DNA from: Vibrio sp. SCSIO 43137
GTDB lineage: Bacteria; Pseudomonadota; Gammaproteobacteria; Enterobacterales; Vibrionaceae
Direction of reading: 5' to 3'
NCBI RefSeq assembly: GCF_028201475.1
Contig: NZ_CP116384.1
Coordinates: 496,001 to 560,000, forward strand
DNA length: 64,000 nt
Positions within the stretch are counted from its first letter, which is position 1; the number at the start of each line of letters is the position of its first letter. Of the stretch, positions 1 through 5,998 are shown piece by piece. Below the pieces are notes generated by a model. The model did not search any database. It saw only the letters and a program-made list of their open reading frames with translations, and was not told where the DNA came from. The translations under genes and the position numbers were made by a program.

Positions 1-1
1 T

Positions 2-94
2 GAGGGGCTGGAGAATGCACCGGAAGCATTTGCTGGTCTGCTGGAAGGCAAGAACTTCGGTAAGTTGGTTATTAAAGTGAATGAGCCGGTTTAA
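2..94 (+). CDS. CurA/YncB-like NADPH-dependent oxidoreductase, C-terminal end only
   Basis: The first 30 codons visible are the end of a gene that begins before the window. The peptide ends in APEAFAGLLEGKNFGKLVIKV followed by a few residues. This closely resembles the C-terminus of zinc-independent medium-chain dehydrogenases of the CurA/YncB type, which end in a 'F.GLL.GKNFGK..I.V' pattern and reduce alkenal or alkenone bonds with NADPH. The stop codon lies 37 bases before the next gene, a glutathione transferase, so the two may be cotranscribed. The call rests on the tail only, so the family is likely but the substrate cannot be judged. Confidence 0.6.
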   Translation, partial: EGLENAPEAFAGLLEGKNFGKLVIKVNEPV

Positions 95-131
95 CCGATT
101 ATTGGTTTAAGGATAATAAGAGGAAATCGCA

Positions 132-752
132 ATGATTACATTACATCACCTTAATAAATCACGTTCTAAACGTATTATCTGGCTGCTGGAAGAGCTTGGC
201 CTTGAATATAACATTCAGCCTTATCAGCGTGATGCTGTCACTTTTCTTGCGCCGCCAGAGTTAAAGGCGGTTCATCCCTTGGGCAAATCTCCGGTGCTGG
301 AAGATAACGGATTAGTTATCGCTGAGTCTGGTGCTATTACCGAGTATCTGATCGATAAGTTTTCTGACGGTAAACTTGCTCCGGAGAAAGGTACTACCGC
401 TTATGTTGAGTACCTGCAATGGATGCATTTTGCCGAGAGTTCGGGAATTCTTCCTCCGCTACTCAAGATATTTGTGCTTAAAGATGGTTGTGACACTAAT
501 TTTCTGGGCGACTACGCCGATGCAGAGCTGGCTAAGGTAATGAGTTACCTGAACAGTTCCCTTGAAGGTAAACGCTATCTGATAGAAGAGCGACTGACGG
601 GCGCAGACATAATGATTTCGTTTATTGTCGAAGCTTTGAAAAATCTGGGTGAAATTGAAAAGTACCCGAATATTCAAGGTTACGCAGCTCAACTGGCGAC
701 ACATCCGGCATTTGTAAAAGCAGATCATATTGAAGCTGACGCGGAAAAGTAA
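132..752 (+). CDS. Glutathione S-transferase family protein
   Basis: This 206-residue protein has the normal GST length and layout. It has an N-terminal thioredoxin-like domain (about 1-80) with an early active-site Ser (HHLNKSRSKRIIWLLEELGL), the cis-proline region near GKSPVLED, and the glutathione-binding pair ESGAI. An all-helical C-terminal domain follows, with the GADIMISF motif in place of the usual 'tADi.m'. It resembles the small GstB/YibF-like cytosolic GSTs of enterics and vibrios, which conjugate or reduce electrophilic compounds. An AGAGGAAA ribosome site precedes the ATG. It sits 37 bases after the oxidoreductase tail, which fits a small detoxification operon ending at the hairpin at 787-834. 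Confidence 0.85.
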   Translation: MITLHHLNKSRSKRIIWLLEELGLEYNIQPYQRDAVTFLAPPELKAVHPLGKSPVLEDNGLVIAESGAITEYLIDKFSDGKLAPEKGTTAYVEYLQWMHFAESSGILPPLLKIFVLKDGCDTNFLGDYADAELAKVMSYLNSSLEGKRYLIEERLTGADIMISFIVEALKNLGEIEKYPNIQGYAAQLATHPAFVKADHIEADAEK

Positions 753-786
753 CAAGTTTATCTTTCTGATTTAAATTTTGATTAAT

Positions 787-834
787 ACGGCCTCTTTTGT
801 ATGGTTAATGCTGGCAAAAGAGGCCGTAGTTTTA
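787..834 (+). terminator. Rho-independent terminator after the GST gene
   Basis: ACGGCCTCTTTT (787-798) pairs perfectly with AAAAGAGGCCGT (816-827) around a 17-base loop, followed by AGTTTTA. It ends the GST transcript and insulates the peptide genes that follow. Confidence 0.85.
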
Positions 835-921
835 TCTGACGCTTATGGAGTATAAATTGAGCTTCTGATGGAAAATATTTAATGAATTTGCAAAAACATT
901 AAAAAATATGTGATTTTGCTC

Positions 922-954
922 TTGATAAACTTCATAAACGTGACTAAAATCACG
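922..954 (+). promoter_or_regulatory. Predicted sigma-70 promoter for the peptide cluster, with a palindrome over the -10
   Basis: TTGATA (922-927) and TAAAAT (945-950) are separated by exactly 17 bases and lie about 46 bases before the first peptide start. The -10 box sits inside a 16-base inverted repeat, CGTGA-N6-TCACG (939-954), which could be an operator. The promoter call is from consensus match only. Confidence 0.6.
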
Positions 955-995
955 CCATAAATGTGAAGCGAAGAAAAAACAGGAGAAAAGAATAT

Positions 996-1145
996 ATGAA
1001 AAATACTATTGCACATGCGTTTATCGGCCAAAAAGCAATGAAAAACATGATTAACGAATCAATCAAGCTTAAAGCAGAGAAAAAGAACACTTTTAAGGCG
1101 TCGCTTTTCTCAGCAATCATGATTAGAAACGCTGTTAGCCTGTAA
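996..1145 (+). CDS. Peptide 1 of a three-member tandem paralogous family (unknown function)
   Basis: This gene encodes 49 residues, starting MKNTIAHAFIGQKAMKNM and ending SLFSAIMIRNAVSL. I do not recognise the family. The start is chosen by homology to the two following peptides and by an AGGAGA ribosome site nine bases upstream; a longer reading from 963 has no such support. The middle is lysine-rich and the end is hydrophobic, and there is no signal peptide or cysteine. A good promoter lies at 922-950. The shared N-terminal block and shared C-terminal S-A-I/V-M/L-x-R pattern across three neighbouring genes argue that it is translated. The function is open: a secreted or leader-type peptide, a small membrane-active peptide or a small regulator are all possible. 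Confidence 0.75.
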   Translation: MKNTIAHAFIGQKAMKNMINESIKLKAEKKNTFKASLFSAIMIRNAVSL

Positions 1146-1418
1146 TCCAGGCAAGCTGCCATCCGGCAAAAAAGAAGTAACTACAAATTTAAGCAATACA
1201 ACCTTCAGGCACCAAACTTCAGACAAACAGCAGGCATCATCTTCTGATGTCAGGCTCTGCCAACAGAGCCGGGAAATAGTGTATGACTCACGACATATCT
1301 GAATGTTTTCTACCCGATAGAACTTAACAAACTACTCAGACACGGACTTCTGAACTTATCTGCTCGATTTAGGAGCGAAGGTTAGATATAGCGCCATTAA
1401 TACTCAGAGGAAAATCAA

Positions 1419-1694
1419 ATGAAAAACAATATAGCTAATGCATACATGGGTCAGAAAGCTGCACAAAAAATGATCAGAGAACAAGCAGAAAAACCGGTGC
1501 AAGTTAAACGCAAAGAGAAAGCGACGCTAATCTCTGCAATCATGCTGAGAAATGGTGTAGGCGGTACCCTTGAATCAAACACTCAGGTTGAATCTGTTGT
1601 TGATTCCATTGAGTCATGTGCAACTAAAGCGGTTGAAAAGCAAGGTAACTTTCTAATCAATCTGCTACGTCGCACTATGCCTCTTGGCCAGTAA
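1419..1694 (+). CDS. Peptide 2 of the tandem family, with a C-terminal extension (unknown function)
   Basis: This is a 91-residue protein. Residues 1-18 (MKNNIANAYMGQKAAQKM) match the other two peptides, and residues about 34-47 (KATLISAIMLRNGV) match the end of peptide 1. After that it carries about 43 extra residues not found in its neighbours, including a Ser/Glu-rich stretch, a single Cys in ESCATKAV, and a basic amphipathic end (INLLRRTMPLGQ). CAGAGGA lies eight bases before the ATG. Codons of the conserved block differ from peptide 3 mainly at silent positions, which points to selection on the protein. No known domain is visible. The extension could be a second functional segment or the result of a lost stop codon. 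Confidence 0.75.
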   Translation: MKNNIANAYMGQKAAQKMIREQAEKPVQVKRKEKATLISAIMLRNGVGGTLESNTQVESVVDSIESCATKAVEKQGNFLINLLRRTMPLGQ

Positions 1695-1762
1695 TCGCAC
1701 GCTACCCAGATAAATAACAGAAGTAAGTCAGACTAATTAAAACAAACTAAAAGGAAATAATG

Positions 1763-1897
1763 ATGAAAAACAGTATCGCAAATGCATATATGGGTCAGAA
1801 AGCAGCAGCTAAAATGGCAGAAACCAGCTCGCGCAAATCTGCGTCTAAACTGTCACTGGTGTCTGTAGTTCTTATGAGCCGTGCAATCAGCGCATAA
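1763..1897 (+). CDS. Peptide 3 of the tandem family (44 residues, unknown function)
   Basis: This is a very short gene starting MKNSIANAYMGQKAAAKM and ending SLVSVVLMSRAISA. AAGGA (1751-1755) sits seven bases before the ATG at 1763; an in-frame ATG at 1760 would add one Met. Of the first 18 codons, 16 encode the same residue as peptide 2 and four of those 16 differ silently, so this is a genuine paralogue rather than chance. A short Ser/Lys-rich linker (TSSRKSASK) separates the conserved head from the hydrophobic tail. No cysteines and no known family. The gap after peptide 2 is only 68 bases, so the two are probably on one transcript. Confidence 0.75.
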   Translation: MKNSIANAYMGQKAAAKMAETSSRKSASKLSLVSVVLMSRAISA

Positions 1898-1965
1898 GTA
1901 ACCTTTTAATCCCCCTGCGAAATCCTGCCCTGAACAGCAGGTAAACAGTCAAAACATCAGCAATA

Positions 1966-2003
1966 AAAAGTTTGAATTGCCCCTACAAAGGGCAATAAAA
2001 CTT
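1966..2003 (-). terminator. Terminator of the Gfo/Idh operon, convergent with the peptide genes
   Basis: ATTGCCC (1976-1982) and GGGCAAT (1990-1996) form the core stem. AAGTTT and AAACTT form an outer stem, and on the minus strand a T-rich run follows. It lies just beyond the stop of the minus-strand oxidoreductase. Confidence 0.6.
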
Positions 2004-2064
2004 GCTGTTATCTTTCCCGGAAAAAAGCCCCGGATTTGTGATAAACCAAGGGCTCTGCGGCTGG

Positions 2065-3072
2065 TTACTCAGAAAGCCCTGCTGCATTCTCAATATCAGT
2101 CAGCATTTGCATAATTTGATAAGAGTCCTCTGCCGAGGCAGAAGTGCCAGACAGTTGTTTATCACCGTTAGCAAGTGCCTCCACAATGTTCTGAACCTGA
2201 TAGTAAAATCCGTCACCGTCAGCAGAATAGCTATAAGCATCGCTTGTTTTCTCATACTCAGTAACAACAAATGAGTTATCTTCTTTATCAGCCAGCCACG
2301 GATTAGACGTCAGGGTTAAGCTTTTTTTACTGCCATTGATAACAAATTCTGAATGCAGGCCGAAGTCTTCCGCACTGTGAACACGCACAACCATCTGGTT
2401 TTTAAAGCGGATAAGGGCAGAAATTTCGCAGAAGTTACCATCACCACCCCTGCGGCCGTAGGCACTAACCTGATAATCCTTTAGCTCTTCATCACTGAGC
2501 TGAGATTTGAGTAACAGGTTAATCAGGGAAACAGGATAGCAGGCGAGGTTGTATAGAGTGCCTTTACTATCCGGATTGACAAACTGGGAGATAGCAGCAC
2601 AGTAACTGGCATTGATGGATTTGATTTCACCCAGTTCACCACTTTTGACCACAGACTCAATTTGTCCGGCAAAAGGATGGTTTAGATACATCAGACCCTC
2701 TGCGAAAAATACGCCGCTCTCTTTGACGGCTTCTAATGCCTGGGTGGTTTTTTCCATATCGACTGACAGTGACTTCTCACACAAGATCGCCTTGTTCGCT
2801 TTAGCGGCTTTCACCACATACTCATGGTGGAGGTGGTTTGGCAGGGCGATATAAACGATATCTACGTTCTCATCCACCAATAGTTCATCATAGCTTGTGT
2901 AGCGGGTTGCAATAGAAAACTGATCGGCAAATGATGTCAGGTTTTGCTCATTTCTTCCTGCTACAGCTGCAATTTCGCTGTTTTGGTTGGCGATAATCGC
3001 TTCAGCCATGGTGCCGGAAATAAAGCTGGTGCCAAGAATACCCCAGCGAAGATTTTTGTTAGGCTGCCTCAT
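2065..3072 (-). CDS. Gfo/Idh/MocA family NAD(P)-dependent oxidoreductase
   Basis: This 335-residue protein has an N-terminal Rossmann fold with the dinucleotide loop WGILGTSFIS (10-18), the AGR strand end, and the ALPNHLHHEY block typical of Gfo/Idh/MocA enzymes. The usual EKP catalytic-region motif is EKS here (about 99-101), a modest departure. The C-terminal alpha/beta domain contains the GTLYNLACYPVSLI segment, where a dimeric-dehydrogenase-like 'G..yd.g.Y' motif is expected. Family members oxidise or reduce sugar and polyol carbonyls with NAD(P); the substrate cannot be told from sequence. It starts three bases after a small monooxygenase gene, so the two form an operon divergent from a LysR gene. 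Confidence 0.85.
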   Translation of the reverse strand: MRQPNKNLRWGILGTSFISGTMAEAIIANQNSEIAAVAGRNEQNLTSFADQFSIATRYTSYDELLVDENVDIVYIALPNHLHHEYVVKAAKANKAILCEKSLSVDMEKTTQALEAVKESGVFFAEGLMYLNHPFAGQIESVVKSGELGEIKSINASYCAAISQFVNPDSKGTLYNLACYPVSLINLLLKSQLSDEELKDYQVSAYGRRGGDGNFCEISALIRFKNQMVVRVHSAEDFGLHSEFVINGSKKSLTLTSNPWLADKEDNSFVVTEYEKTSDAYSYSADGDGFYYQVQNIVEALANGDKQLSGTSASAEDSYQIMQMLTDIENAAGLSE

Positions 3073-3075
3073 GGT

Positions 3076-3372
3076 TTACTCCTCTGCTGCTGTTGTCTCA
3101 TATGCCTGAACGAGTGTCGTAACTCCTGAGCGGATAAACGCCTGAGTATGTTCGGCATTAAAGTGTGCTTCAAACGCTTCCGGGCTCTGGTACTTTTCCC
3201 ATAGAATAAAACGGCGCGGGTTATCTTTTACTGCCATAGGTTTGGCCATATCGCAGCCCGGTTCACTTTCCATATCCGCACAAAACTGAATGATGGCTTT
3301 GCGACCCTCAGTTGTATCGATTTGTTCACTGATTTCCAGCTCAGCAGTAATAAAAATAGCAGTTTCTGACAC
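3076..3372 (-). CDS. Antibiotic-biosynthesis-monooxygenase-like (ABM/YgiN) protein
   Basis: This is a 98-residue single-domain ferredoxin-like protein. The patterns ARFILWEKYQSPEAFEAHFN-like (here RRFILWEKYQSPEAFEAHFN) and EHTQAFI are characteristic of the ABM/YgiN superfamily, whose dimeric members act as quinol monooxygenases or bind small aromatic substrates without cofactor. It begins the operon with the Gfo/Idh oxidoreductase (three-base gap) and is divergent from the LysR regulator at 3477, a common arrangement for regulator-controlled redox or stress genes. The function beyond the fold is inferred. Confidence 0.75.
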   Translation of the reverse strand: MSETAIFITAELEISEQIDTTEGRKAIIQFCADMESEPGCDMAKPMAVKDNPRRFILWEKYQSPEAFEAHFNAEHTQAFIRSGVTTLVQAYETTAAEE

Positions 3373-3426
3373 TTGTAATACCTCAATTTATTTCAGACCT
3401 TTTATTCTATAGCTTCGTGTATATTG

Positions 3427-3447
3427 ATAAACTCAGTAAAAGTTTAT
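3427..3447. promoter_or_regulatory. LysR-type operator candidate in the divergent promoter region
   Basis: ATAAACT-CAGTAAA-AGTTTAT is a perfect 7-base inverted repeat with a 7-base spacer. It lies 30 bases before the LysR start and 55 bases from the divergent monooxygenase start. The size and T-N11-A geometry suit a LysR-family binding site. Confidence 0.5.
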
Positions 3448-3476
3448 TGTTTATTAACTATGAGTGGATAATTGCC

Positions 3477-4349
3477 ATGGATAAGCTTCGTAGTATGCAG
3501 ATCTTTGTTTATGTGGTGGATAACGGCAGTTTCCGCAGCGCCTGTGGTTACTTTAATTTGTCGGCAACCATGGTGGGAAAACATATCCAGTTTCTTGAAT
3601 CCAGTCTGGGCACTAAGTTAATTAACCGTACCACCCGCAAGCAGTCCCTGACAGAGTCAGGTGAGCTGTACTATCTGGAGTGCCGCAGGATTCTGGATGA
3701 TATTGCCAATGCAGAAAACCAGATCCAGACTCTGGAAAACAGCCCACAGGGGACAGTAAGGATAAACTCTCCGGTTACATTTGGTAATAAAGTTCTCGCG
3801 CCTATTGTGGTGGACTTTCTCAGGCAGTACCCGTCTATTAATGTTGAGCTGACCCTTAACAACCACCTGATTGATCCTATGCATGAGCAGTATGATCTGG
3901 TGGTCAGGATAGGAGAACTGACGGACTCCTCCCTTATTGCACGGCATCTGGGAGATTACCAGATGATCTATTGTGCCTCACAAGATTACCTGAACCAGCA
4001 TCCGCCAATATCTCACCCTGATGACCTCAGGCAGCATAACTGTCTGGGCTTTCAGTACAGCGAAAGCGGAAGGTATTCAGAGTTACTGACAGAAGATAAC
4101 CGCGGCTTCCGTCTTAGCTCTAATAACGGCGATATTCTCAAATATGCCGCAATAAATGGATTAGGTGTGACCTTGCAACCTGAGCTGTTGCTGACTGAAG
4201 AGCTGGAGAGTGGCCGTCTGACTCAGATATTAACCAGCCATACCCCAAAACCTTCCCCCATTCATCTGCTATATAAAGATAAACAGCTATCGGTAAAAAA
4301 CCGTACTTTTGTCGAGTTTGTGTTGGCGTCAATCCGGGAGAACAAATGA
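3477..4349 (+). CDS. LysR family transcriptional regulator (divergent from the Gfo/Idh operon)
   Basis: This 290-residue regulator has an N-terminal winged helix-turn-helix (MDKLRSMQIFVYVVDNGSF, then LSATMVGKHIQFLESSLG and LINRTTRK) and a periplasmic-binding-like effector domain from about 90 to the end. The start at 3477 fits the conserved LysR N-terminus; an upstream in-frame start at 3417 would add an unrelated 20 residues. It resembles the CrgA/AaeR-like group, where a regulator usually controls a divergent oxidoreductase, so the neighbouring genes at 2065-3372 are its likely target. The palindrome at 3427-3447 may be its operator. The FAN1-like nuclease follows 17 bases later. Confidence 0.88.
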   Translation: MDKLRSMQIFVYVVDNGSFRSACGYFNLSATMVGKHIQFLESSLGTKLINRTTRKQSLTESGELYYLECRRILDDIANAENQIQTLENSPQGTVRINSPVTFGNKVLAPIVVDFLRQYPSINVELTLNNHLIDPMHEQYDLVVRIGELTDSSLIARHLGDYQMIYCASQDYLNQHPPISHPDDLRQHNCLGFQYSESGRYSELLTEDNRGFRLSSNNGDILKYAAINGLGVTLQPELLLTEELESGRLTQILTSHTPKPSPIHLLYKDKQLSVKNRTFVEFVLASIRENK

Positions 4350-4366
4350 GCATAGAGAGGCGTTAA

Positions 4367-5998
4367 GTGGCTGAGCAAAAATTGCAGTTAATCGCTGACT
4401 ATTATCGCAGCAATTTTGACAGGCTGGTTGACCATGCCCGCCACTGGTATGCCGATCTGCTTACCACAGAGGAAGCTGACTGGATTGCTAAGTACTCGAA
4501 CCTGACGACAGATGCGCAGTGTCTTTTGGTCAGGTTACTGATACGAAAAGGCGAGTGGTTTCGCAGTGACAAACTTAGATATGACGAGATATCCGATGTG
4601 AGTGCTGCTGCGCGGGAATTGGATCAGTGCGGGTTTATCGATATCAATCCGGCTATTAGTGAACAGCAACTGGCTGCCAGCTTGCTGACCCGCCCAGAGC
4701 TGATCCGGCTGTTTGTCCCGAATAATAAAACATTGCGAAAAGCTGAATTGGTCGAGCAGCTCTCTTCTGAACCGATTTCTCCTGAGTTAGATGTTAATTT
4801 TGAAATCTTCTATCTGAACAACTCACGGGTTATTGAACTACTAACGCTGTTATTTTTTGCCAATACCCGACAGGATATCAGCCAGTTTGTCACAGAAGAT
4901 TTGGGGCTTCACCAGTTTGAAAATTATCAGCTAAGTCGTGAAAGGCGCTTTTTCAATGTCAGGGAGCAGGTTGATAGTTTACTGCAAATCGCCCGTCTCA
5001 GTAATCAACATGAAAACATCACCGGGCGTAACAAAGAGGGGTTAACTGCAATACTACAATCGGTTCCTCAACTGTGCGTTCACAGCTATATTGACAGAAA
5101 ACGGGCACAATTGATCAACAGGCTTGCCCGAGATCTTGAGAGGTGCGGAGAGGAGGAGCTGGCTCTGCAGTGGTATAGCCAAGTGAAGTTAGCCCCCAGC
5201 AGAGAGCGCCGGATAAGAATTCTGCATAAGCAGGAAAAACTGGATAAAGCTGAGCAGATTCTGAAAGAGATGCAGCAGCAGCCACAAGATGTCAGTGAAC
5301 AGGAGATGGCTGAACGTCTTGCCCTGAAAATAAAAAGGAGCAGGGGAGAGAAAACCCGTAGGGCGGTTAAACCGCAATATCGTGAAAACCACCTCACTTT
5401 GGAACTGCAGGGTAAGCGGGTTGAGTTAGCAGTAAAGGAAGAGTACGAACAGCAGGGTTGGCAAGTCTATTTTATTGAAAATCAATTGCTTAATGCTTTG
5501 TTTGGTCTGGCGTTCTGGGATATTATTTTTGCCCCTGTTGACGATGCCTTTATCAACGCTTATCAGACTGCCCCTTTGGATCTTTACACGCAGGAGTTTA
5601 GTCAAAAACGAAAGGCTGAGCTGGAGAAGCGGCTGCAACAACTGAGAGAGGGCGATATAGAGTGTATCGAACGCCACTATCACCAGAAACAGGGAACAGC
5701 GAACAACTTTGTACACTGGCCTTTAATTGATGAAGAGCTATTAAAACTAGCCCTGAACAGCATAAAGGGAGAACTACTGGCTGATCTATTTGAAGTGATG
5801 CTGTCGGACTTAAAATTGTATCGCAGCGGGATGCCGGATCTGATCGCTTTTAAACAGAACCGCTTTCTATGGATTGAGGTTAAAGGGCCGGGCGATAAGT
5901 TACAGGATAGTCAGTGGCGCTGGATAAATGAGTTTAACCGGCTACAGGTGCCATTTTCAGTCTGTTATGTTAACCATGAAAAGAAAAAAGTTGGCTGA
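4367..5998 (+). CDS. FAN1-type VRR-NUC structure-specific nuclease
   Basis: This 543-residue protein starts at GTG with GAGAGG just upstream. The C-terminal VRR-NUC domain shows the PD-(D/E)xK core: GMPDL (488-492), then WIEVKGPGD (502-510) with Glu504 and Lys506, and Gln516 in DSQW. This is the pattern of FAN1 nucleases, which cut 5' flaps and unhook interstrand DNA crosslinks. The N-terminal part (about 60-200) matches the FAN1 winged-helix/SAP-like region and the middle (about 230-330) has helical TPR-like repeats (EELALQWYSQVKLAPSRERRIRILHK). The length matches bacterial FAN1 proteins. It is co-directional with the preceding LysR gene but probably unrelated in function. Confidence 0.85.
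   Translation: MAEQKLQLIADYYRSNFDRLVDHARHWYADLLTTEEADWIAKYSNLTTDAQCLLVRLLIRKGEWFRSDKLRYDEISDVSAAARELDQCGFIDINPAISEQQLAASLLTRPELIRLFVPNNKTLRKAELVEQLSSEPISPELDVNFEIFYLNNSRVIELLTLLFFANTRQDISQFVTEDLGLHQFENYQLSRERRFFNVREQVDSLLQIARLSNQHENITGRNKEGLTAILQSVPQLCVHSYIDRKRAQLINRLARDLERCGEEELALQWYSQVKLAPSRERRIRILHKQEKLDKAEQILKEMQQQPQDVSEQEMAERLALKIKRSRGEKTRRAVKPQYRENHLTLELQGKRVELAVKEEYEQQGWQVYFIENQLLNALFGLAFWDIIFAPVDDAFINAYQTAPLDLYTQEFSQKRKAELEKRLQQLREGDIECIERHYHQKQGTANNFVHWPLIDEELLKLALNSIKGELLADLFEVMLSDLKLYRSGMPDLIAFKQNRFLWIEVKGPGDKLQDSQWRWINEFNRLQVPFSVCYVNHEKKKVG

Follow-up and report, generated by a model that had tools for sequence, protein, structure and literature searches.

A tandem set of three small-protein genes in Vibrio sp. 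SCSIO 43137 and its Vibrionaceae family with a conserved promoter

The three-gene array and its setting

The window, meaning the whole stretch of 64,000 nucleotides analysed from Vibrio sp. SCSIO 43137, carries near its start three short genes in a row (Table 1). An earlier reading made without database searches (the sequence-only reading) had described them as tandem genes of 49, 91 and 44 codons, each with a ribosome site. ORF reading confirmed the three genes, and the purine-rich stretch before each is, judged by eye, able to serve. The head MKNxIAxA(F/Y)(I/M)GQKA, said to be common to all three peptides, was borne out by comparison. The common ending S-A/V-I/V-M/L-x-R is present but looser than claimed, peptide 3 reading SVVLMSRAISA. 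The added tail of peptide 2 was found as described, and this tail (window 1566-1691) is absent from every other family member read, with searches of other genomes by peptide 2 giving matches that cover only its family part.

Table 1. Features of the array and its promoter, in window positions
Feature	Position	Strand	Remarks
Upstream promoter element TGTGATTTTGCTCTTG	909..924	+	CRP class II-like; its TTG begins the -35 box; exact family element
-35 box TTGATA	922..927	+	Promoter scan, 10/12 matches, 17-nt spacer
Second CRP-like palindrome CGTGACTAAAATCACG, over the -10 box	939..954	+	Two mismatches to TGTGA-N6-TCACA
-10 box TAAAAT	945..950	+	Promoter scan and family comparison
Peptide 1 ORF	996..1145	+	49 aa, net +7, predicted helical; bears the family promoter
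Hairpin GGCTCTG-ccaa-CAGAGCC	1253..1270	+	Between peptides 1 and 2; without T run
Peptide 2 ORF	1419..1694	+	91 aa, of which about 49 form the family domain and 42 the tail
Peptide 3 ORF	1763..1897	+	44 aa; alternative ATG one codon upstream, at 1760

Searched against the whole genome (4.9 Mb, two contigs) with a limit of E<=10, peptide 2 retrieved just the other two peptides (E 2.3e-7 and 6.6e-5), so the likeness among the three is not due to chance. Chance similarity is further rejected by the profile matches in other Vibrio genomes described below.

The hairpin between peptides 1 and 2 is GC-rich and strong, and is a possible processing site; lacking a T run, it is not a terminator. It is seen within the computed fold of the gap between the two genes, a fold which is itself unexceptional (z -1.35, with 21 of 200 shuffles folding equally well). 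Rfam, searched with window 1-5000 only, gave no match either, and a structured RNA was rejected as the explanation of the locus. Terminator-like sites are lacking throughout window 740-2100.

The array is flanked by genes for a glutathione S-transferase and a Gfo/Idh/MocA protein, the Pfam search of its neighbours having covered these two only. Among the long ORFs (>=110 aa) of the surrounding 10 kb (G000:C2:490000-500000, G000 being the window genome), permease-like and pilin-like ORFs are present, and no peptidase, exporter or modifying enzyme was recognised by eye.

A conserved small-protein family

The view that the peptides belong to no recognised family stands for the libraries searched. 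The window peptides have no Pfam match up to E 10, and in NCBIfam peptide 2 has three matches, all sub-threshold (E 0.053-0.087). Two usual copies of the family described below and one copy from Vibrio sp. 99-8-1 gave only chance matches to other Pfam families (E 0.087 and 0.17). Pfam, NCBIfam and PHROGs thus offer no family for these proteins, and a PDB profile search returned weak partial matches at most (best E 0.094). Peptide 2 alone gave one locus among the genome contigs. A profile of the three peptides, searched against 227 Vibrio genomes, produced one other strong match, in Vibrio sp. 99-8-1 (G171, locus L004), a genome with three copies, two in tandem and one apart from these, beside a glutaredoxin gene. 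Weak matches of this window-only profile (E 0.004-0.1) were read at 28 loci (L007-L034). At 26 of them the motif A(Y/F).GQ stands close to the beginning of an ORF, under a filter that itself demanded an A-Y/F-x-G-Q/I core; L010 and L021 hold no motif-bearing ORF. At 24 of the 26 the ORF has 44 aa and a single start, at one 37 aa, and at one a start giving either 49 or 44 aa. With their constant ORF size and shared motif, these loci constitute evidence independent of the wider profile that followed.

That profile was built on a 12-row alignment of the window peptides, the Vibrio sp. 99-8-1 copies and six weak-match proteins, the invariant columns of which fall mostly within the head. It places the family in 155 of the 227 Vibrio genomes (E<=0.05); the sequence-only reading had named homologues in other genomes beforehand as its test. 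The remaining 72 genomes have no match at this threshold, and the protein is therefore absent or unrecognised in many species. In a family-level sample, which includes the same Vibrio genomes, 168 of 329 genomes, from 3 of the 13 genera, have a match (E<=0.1), and in an order-level sample 26 of 394 genomes do so, from 2 of the 114 genera (E<=0.01), indicating that the family is confined to Vibrionaceae as far as sampled. There is one copy in each of the 155 genomes, except for three each in the window genome and Vibrio sp. 99-8-1 and two in G180. Tandem copies elsewhere, which the sequence-only reading proposed to look for, occur in the Vibrio sp. 99-8-1 pair, but a single copy is the rule in nearly all positive genomes. 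At L009, in G180, the family gene runs into a different, shorter C-terminus, probably through a frameshift.

The three window peptides match the family profile, though they are among its 12 rows, and they carry the head motif A(Y/F)xGQxxAxxM with a basic C-terminal half that marks the family. A family ORF was found at all 43 loci read in detail, these being loci fetched for matches together with the window. The window peptides keep the family head, while their end differs and is less charged than in the usual copies. The glutaredoxin-side copy of Vibrio sp. 99-8-1 (MGHDIATAFIGYKAAQAMLNEQMYG...) is intermediate between the window type and the 44-aa type, a link which rests on short sequences. 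In the family tree, which has 44 columns and 12 of 59 inner branches well supported, the window peptides group with the tandem pair of Vibrio sp. 99-8-1 in a single clade (100/93), whose sister is the glutaredoxin-side copy (95/94).

Phage or plasmid cargo was rejected, there being no relative among viral contigs with the 12-row profile and none among plasmids with peptide 2. A usual copy gave three plasmid matches, all of them large Vibrio replicons filed as plasmids. The sole real gene table among these three records labels the family gene "hypothetical protein", the other two records holding two features each in all. Among the matches listed for the main text of freely readable papers on Vibrio small proteins, CRP and HexR, the family is not described, and four peptide strings and one accession gave no literature match. 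Of the undescribed peptide system once proposed, the word undescribed thus stands for the literature searched, but the notion of a peptide system is not supported.

Selection on the protein had been suggested from peptides 2 and 3, where four of the six changed codons within the first 18 are silent. This count is correct; inside the window it proves little, however, since peptides 1 and 2 give 7 of 14. The wider family bears the suggestion out, and the preference for silent sites over many members is present. For 56 distinct gene-plus-upstream sequences (44 codons), 329 of the 1540 pairs were usable (0<dS<1), those dropped having saturated, zero or undefined dS. Over these pairs, which are non-independent, summed dN over summed dS is 0.17, the median ratio is 0.15, and the ratio reaches 1 or more in a single pair. 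The family protein is under strong purifying selection. Both halves are equally conserved in 43 distinct 44-aa proteins, with a mean commonest-residue frequency of 0.72 at positions 2-22 and 0.76 at positions 23-44, and the consensus of these relatives is MGYELGAAYLGQMAAKNMMHEALYGKPKPKKKSFIKRMMKKMAK.

The 59 distinct family proteins outside the window have a median length of 44 aa, a median net charge of +8 (range +2 to +10), a median pI of 10.1 (lowest 9.2) and a highest 19-residue hydropathy of 0.74; the window peptides have net charges of +6 to +7 and highest 19-residue mean hydropathies of 0.76-1.19. With such values and a positive charge, a type I toxin, that is, a short hydrophobic membrane peptide, was rejected. 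AlphaFold2 gave one helix for peptide 1 in a weak model (pLDDT 76, pTM 0.32) and modelled peptide 2 poorly (pLDDT 63, pTM 0.30), the models being largely helical.

These properties bear on the earlier proposal of a leader plus core, under which the genes would encode exported or antimicrobial peptides. Tandem paralogues that are cationic and combine a conserved head with a more variable centre are what such a system would offer. However, the two halves of the usual copies are equally conserved, nearly every positive genome has one copy, no processing or export gene, whether peptidase or ABC exporter, was recognised by eye among the long ORFs near the array, and relatives are lacking in viral contigs (12-row profile) and in plasmids (peptide 2), the usual copy occurring only on the three large replicons mentioned. 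The promoter, described in the next section, is moreover of a carbon-regulated type. Leader plus core, export and an antimicrobial role are therefore not supported; this whole line of explanation is very improbable.

Genomic surroundings were compared at 43 loci (L035, L036, L065-L104 and the window), chosen from the matches to spread over scores, with genes of at least 100 aa only and with L035 and L036 from one genome. A glutaredoxin-type gene lies nearby in 37 loci and is the next long gene, in convergent orientation, in 33; its products form one cluster with a length of about 205 aa, and the glutaredoxin domain PF00462 was identified in the member tested. This answers the earlier suggestion to look for a conserved neighbour. 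The convergent neighbour is frequent in the family, not universal, and the window array is without one. Upstream, a gene of about 116 aa occurs in 30 of the 43 loci, the tested member having no Pfam match. This upstream cluster (c2; 115-136 aa, L065-L104; G000:C2:1210240-1210590) represents a second conserved Vibrio protein, and in record L114 its gene comes after genes encoding an isoamylase early-set domain protein and a metalloendopeptidase.

The window genome has its glutaredoxin orthologue just beyond the window end (C2:560622-561242), with 93% identity to the counterpart in Vibrio sp. 99-8-1. The 157 bases between it and a patatin-like gene (C2:560465-560621, L109) hold no family gene; in Vibrio sp. 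99-8-1 the patatin-like gene, identified by eye, sits beyond the small family gene. The slot beside the glutaredoxin gene is empty and the array is 63 kb away, from which it follows that the usual copy is missing here and the array is placed elsewhere. The array may have moved, or the usual copy may have been lost after duplication; Vibrio sp. 99-8-1 has both arrangements.

That the small protein serves the adjacent glutaredoxin-type protein as partner or regulator is suggested by the frequent adjacency and by the presence of a homologue of the latter in 192 of the 227 Vibrio genomes. Against this, the orientation is convergent, so the two genes are not one transcript, and no such neighbour is present at the two fetched loci of a second genus (L083 and L084), possibly Aliivibrio. 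Moreover, G005, G032 and G034 have the small protein without a glutaredoxin homologue (E<=1e-30), at least 37 genomes have the homologue without a small-protein match (192 against 155), and the distance of the window array also speaks against a partnership, which is improbable.

Promoter and transcript

The upstream regions of the family were compared in 72 distinct 140-base sequences outside the window, taken from fetched loci and many of them from related species. The element TGTGA-N6-TCTTG occurs at <=1 mismatch in 70 of the 72 (0.3 in dinucleotide shuffles) and at <=2 mismatches in 71 (shuffles 6.1), the exception being the second gene of the Vibrio sp. 99-8-1 tandem pair. It is exact upstream of peptide 1 and absent upstream of peptides 2 and 3. 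All 72 element bearers (71 relatives and peptide 1) have a -10 hexamer 16 or 17 nt after TTGNNN, against 0.123 for random anchors. The exact composite TGTGA-N6-TCTTG-N19/20-TANNNT has eight sites in six whole genomes, seven of them, judged by position, at family genes and one elsewhere, and a reversed control pattern has one site in the same genomes; in the 4.9-Mb window genome its single site lies before peptide 1. Since the sites of the promoter scan are no more numerous than in shuffles (2 against 2.5), the weight of this promoter rests on the family comparison. The common promoter in turn supports the link between the window type and the 44-aa type, independently of protein sequence. Transcription of peptide 1 would be expected to start near 957.

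At class II CRP promoters the CRP site is centred near -41 and overlaps the -35 box. By its position the family element suggests such a layout, in which the TGTGA half-site has its centre about -41 and the -35 box takes the place of the right half. As this right half is TCTTG and not TCACA, the CRP reading draws on the TGTGA half and the spacing. The presumed V. cholerae copy (G092) lies in a region whose locus tags are, we assume, VCA1008-VCA1010. No site with the letters of this copy appears in the accessible part of the V. cholerae CRP ChIP-seq table (PMC6050953), and the portion available of PMC10328515 has nothing on the family promoter site.

A second, palindromic site, TGTGA-N6-TCACA, lies over the -10 box at <=1 mismatch in 11 of the 72 upstreams (shuffles 0.2), in the same place relative to the promoter. 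The palindrome is perfect at L004, L036, L076, L079, L087, L088, L092, L094, L095 and L099, where it stands 29-30 bases downstream of the conserved element. At <=2 mismatches anywhere in the 140 bases it occurs in 16 of the 72 (shuffles 4.7), so that the window palindrome, with two mismatches, is suggestive only. CRP bound over the -10 box would be expected to repress.

In addition to CRP, the regulator HexR comes into consideration. The excerpt available of PMC11906056 gives TGTAATTAAATTACA as the HexR consensus motif for V. parahaemolyticus, while that of PMC3223726 gives no motif letters. Sites with <=3 mismatches to this consensus are present in 37 of the 72 upstreams (shuffles 0.3) and absent from 35. 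Relative to the element they lie at -23 to -20 and at +44 to +55, most often at -21 and +51, with 13 upstreams having the upstream site only, 14 the downstream site only and 10 both. Peptide 1 has no HexR-like site in its upstream region, the best stretch having 4 mismatches, a level at which shuffles also match.

Of 71 distinct relatives, 54 have a terminator-like hairpin no more than 100 nt past the stop codon (0-5 in five shuffles), and 60 have one when the limit is set at 250 nt (shuffles 3-7). With its own promoter and a hairpin after the stop, the usual gene probably gives a transcript of about 220 nt that carries this gene alone. No such hairpin comes after any of the window genes, and the array is therefore probably a single transcript from the peptide 1 promoter, which peptides 2 and 3, lacking the family promoter, would share. 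A short transcript ended by a terminator might also act as a base-pairing sRNA, the peptide being a second product, as in VcdRP and SgrS/SgrT. The usual copy is indeed a unit of sRNA size with its own promoter and terminator, and VcdRP of V. cholerae is described, in the available part of PMC8672173, as a CRP-controlled transcript of this kind. However, the dN/dS of 0.17 shows a selected protein, the window 1-5000 has no Rfam match and the window array has no terminators, which leaves such a dual-function RNA unlikely.

Interpretation and comparison with known systems

The explanation favoured here, at a probability of roughly 60%, is that the array is a lineage-specific, tandem-duplicated and diverged set of a Vibrionaceae small-protein family whose product would be a small intracellular regulator linked to the carbon state of the cell. 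The usual member is a single-copy, strongly basic protein of about 44 residues, probably helical and cytosolic, and presumably encoded on a transcript consisting of promoter, a 5' leader of about 30 nt, ORF and terminator, about 220 nt in all. CRP would activate from the class II position, a layout from which the protein should be made when preferred carbon sources are short, and HexR would tune expression to sugar flux where HexR-like operators flank the promoter, as they do in about half of the upstreams, around positions -63 and +10. The protein most likely acts inside the cell by binding a partner. This could be a metabolic enzyme, in the way that citrate synthase is bound by VcdP; the charge of the protein also makes RNA and the ribosome candidates. 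In the window, the array would be governed by the CRP-type promoter of peptide 1, with the second CRP-like palindrome over its -10 box, no HexR-like site and probably one transcript. A protein or RNA partner inside the cell is most likely and ranks well above export. Of the three roles offered by the sequence-only reading, the regulatory one is the best, and the exported and antimicrobial ones are not supported.

A more elaborate version, which is tentative, would make the family protein a Vibrio-specific carbon-state switch. Its promoter would combine the input of cAMP-CRP with that of two HexR operators lying about 72 bp from each other, which might form a repression loop. One lineage would have moved and tripled the gene and exchanged HexR for a second CRP site over the -10 box, and its diverged paralogues may form a mixed oligomer. 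Vibrio genomes contain a widespread, selected small protein that is nameless in the family libraries searched. Its promoter indicates carbon limitation as the condition under which a function should be sought, and the composite promoter pattern provides a near-unique tag for locating copies of the family.

The window genes resemble precursors of exported peptides, such as RiPPs and bacteriocins, in being tandem short paralogues with a shared N-terminus. They differ in the conserved C-terminus of the family, in the one copy of most positive genomes and in that no maturation or export genes were recognised by eye. RMF and SRA are small, very basic ribosome proteins linked to starvation. The family protein is likewise small and very basic, as the median charge, pI and low hydropathy given above attest, and would be tied to nutrient limitation by its promoter type. 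A ribosome- or RNA-binding starvation protein of the RMF/SRA kind forms one branch of the favoured explanation and is possible, if doubtful; against it, RMF has a Pfam family, whereas the small proteins described here have no Pfam match beyond chance.

With the HexR regulon of Vibrio, as far as the available part of PMC11906056 describes it, the family shares TGTAATTAAATTACA-type operators at about half of the copies examined, but peptide 1 has no such site. In V. cholerae, VcdP, the 29-aa protein of VcdRP, binds citrate synthase, and vcdRP is repressed by CRP, according to the portion of PMC8672173 available. The two would share the character of a Vibrio small protein under cAMP-CRP, linked to carbon and made from its own short transcript, while differing in length (29 aa against about 44) and in the direction of control, the family layout suggesting activation in place of repression. 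Compared by description and not by sequence, VcdP would be the closest studied analogue of the family, a likeness in kind and not of descent.
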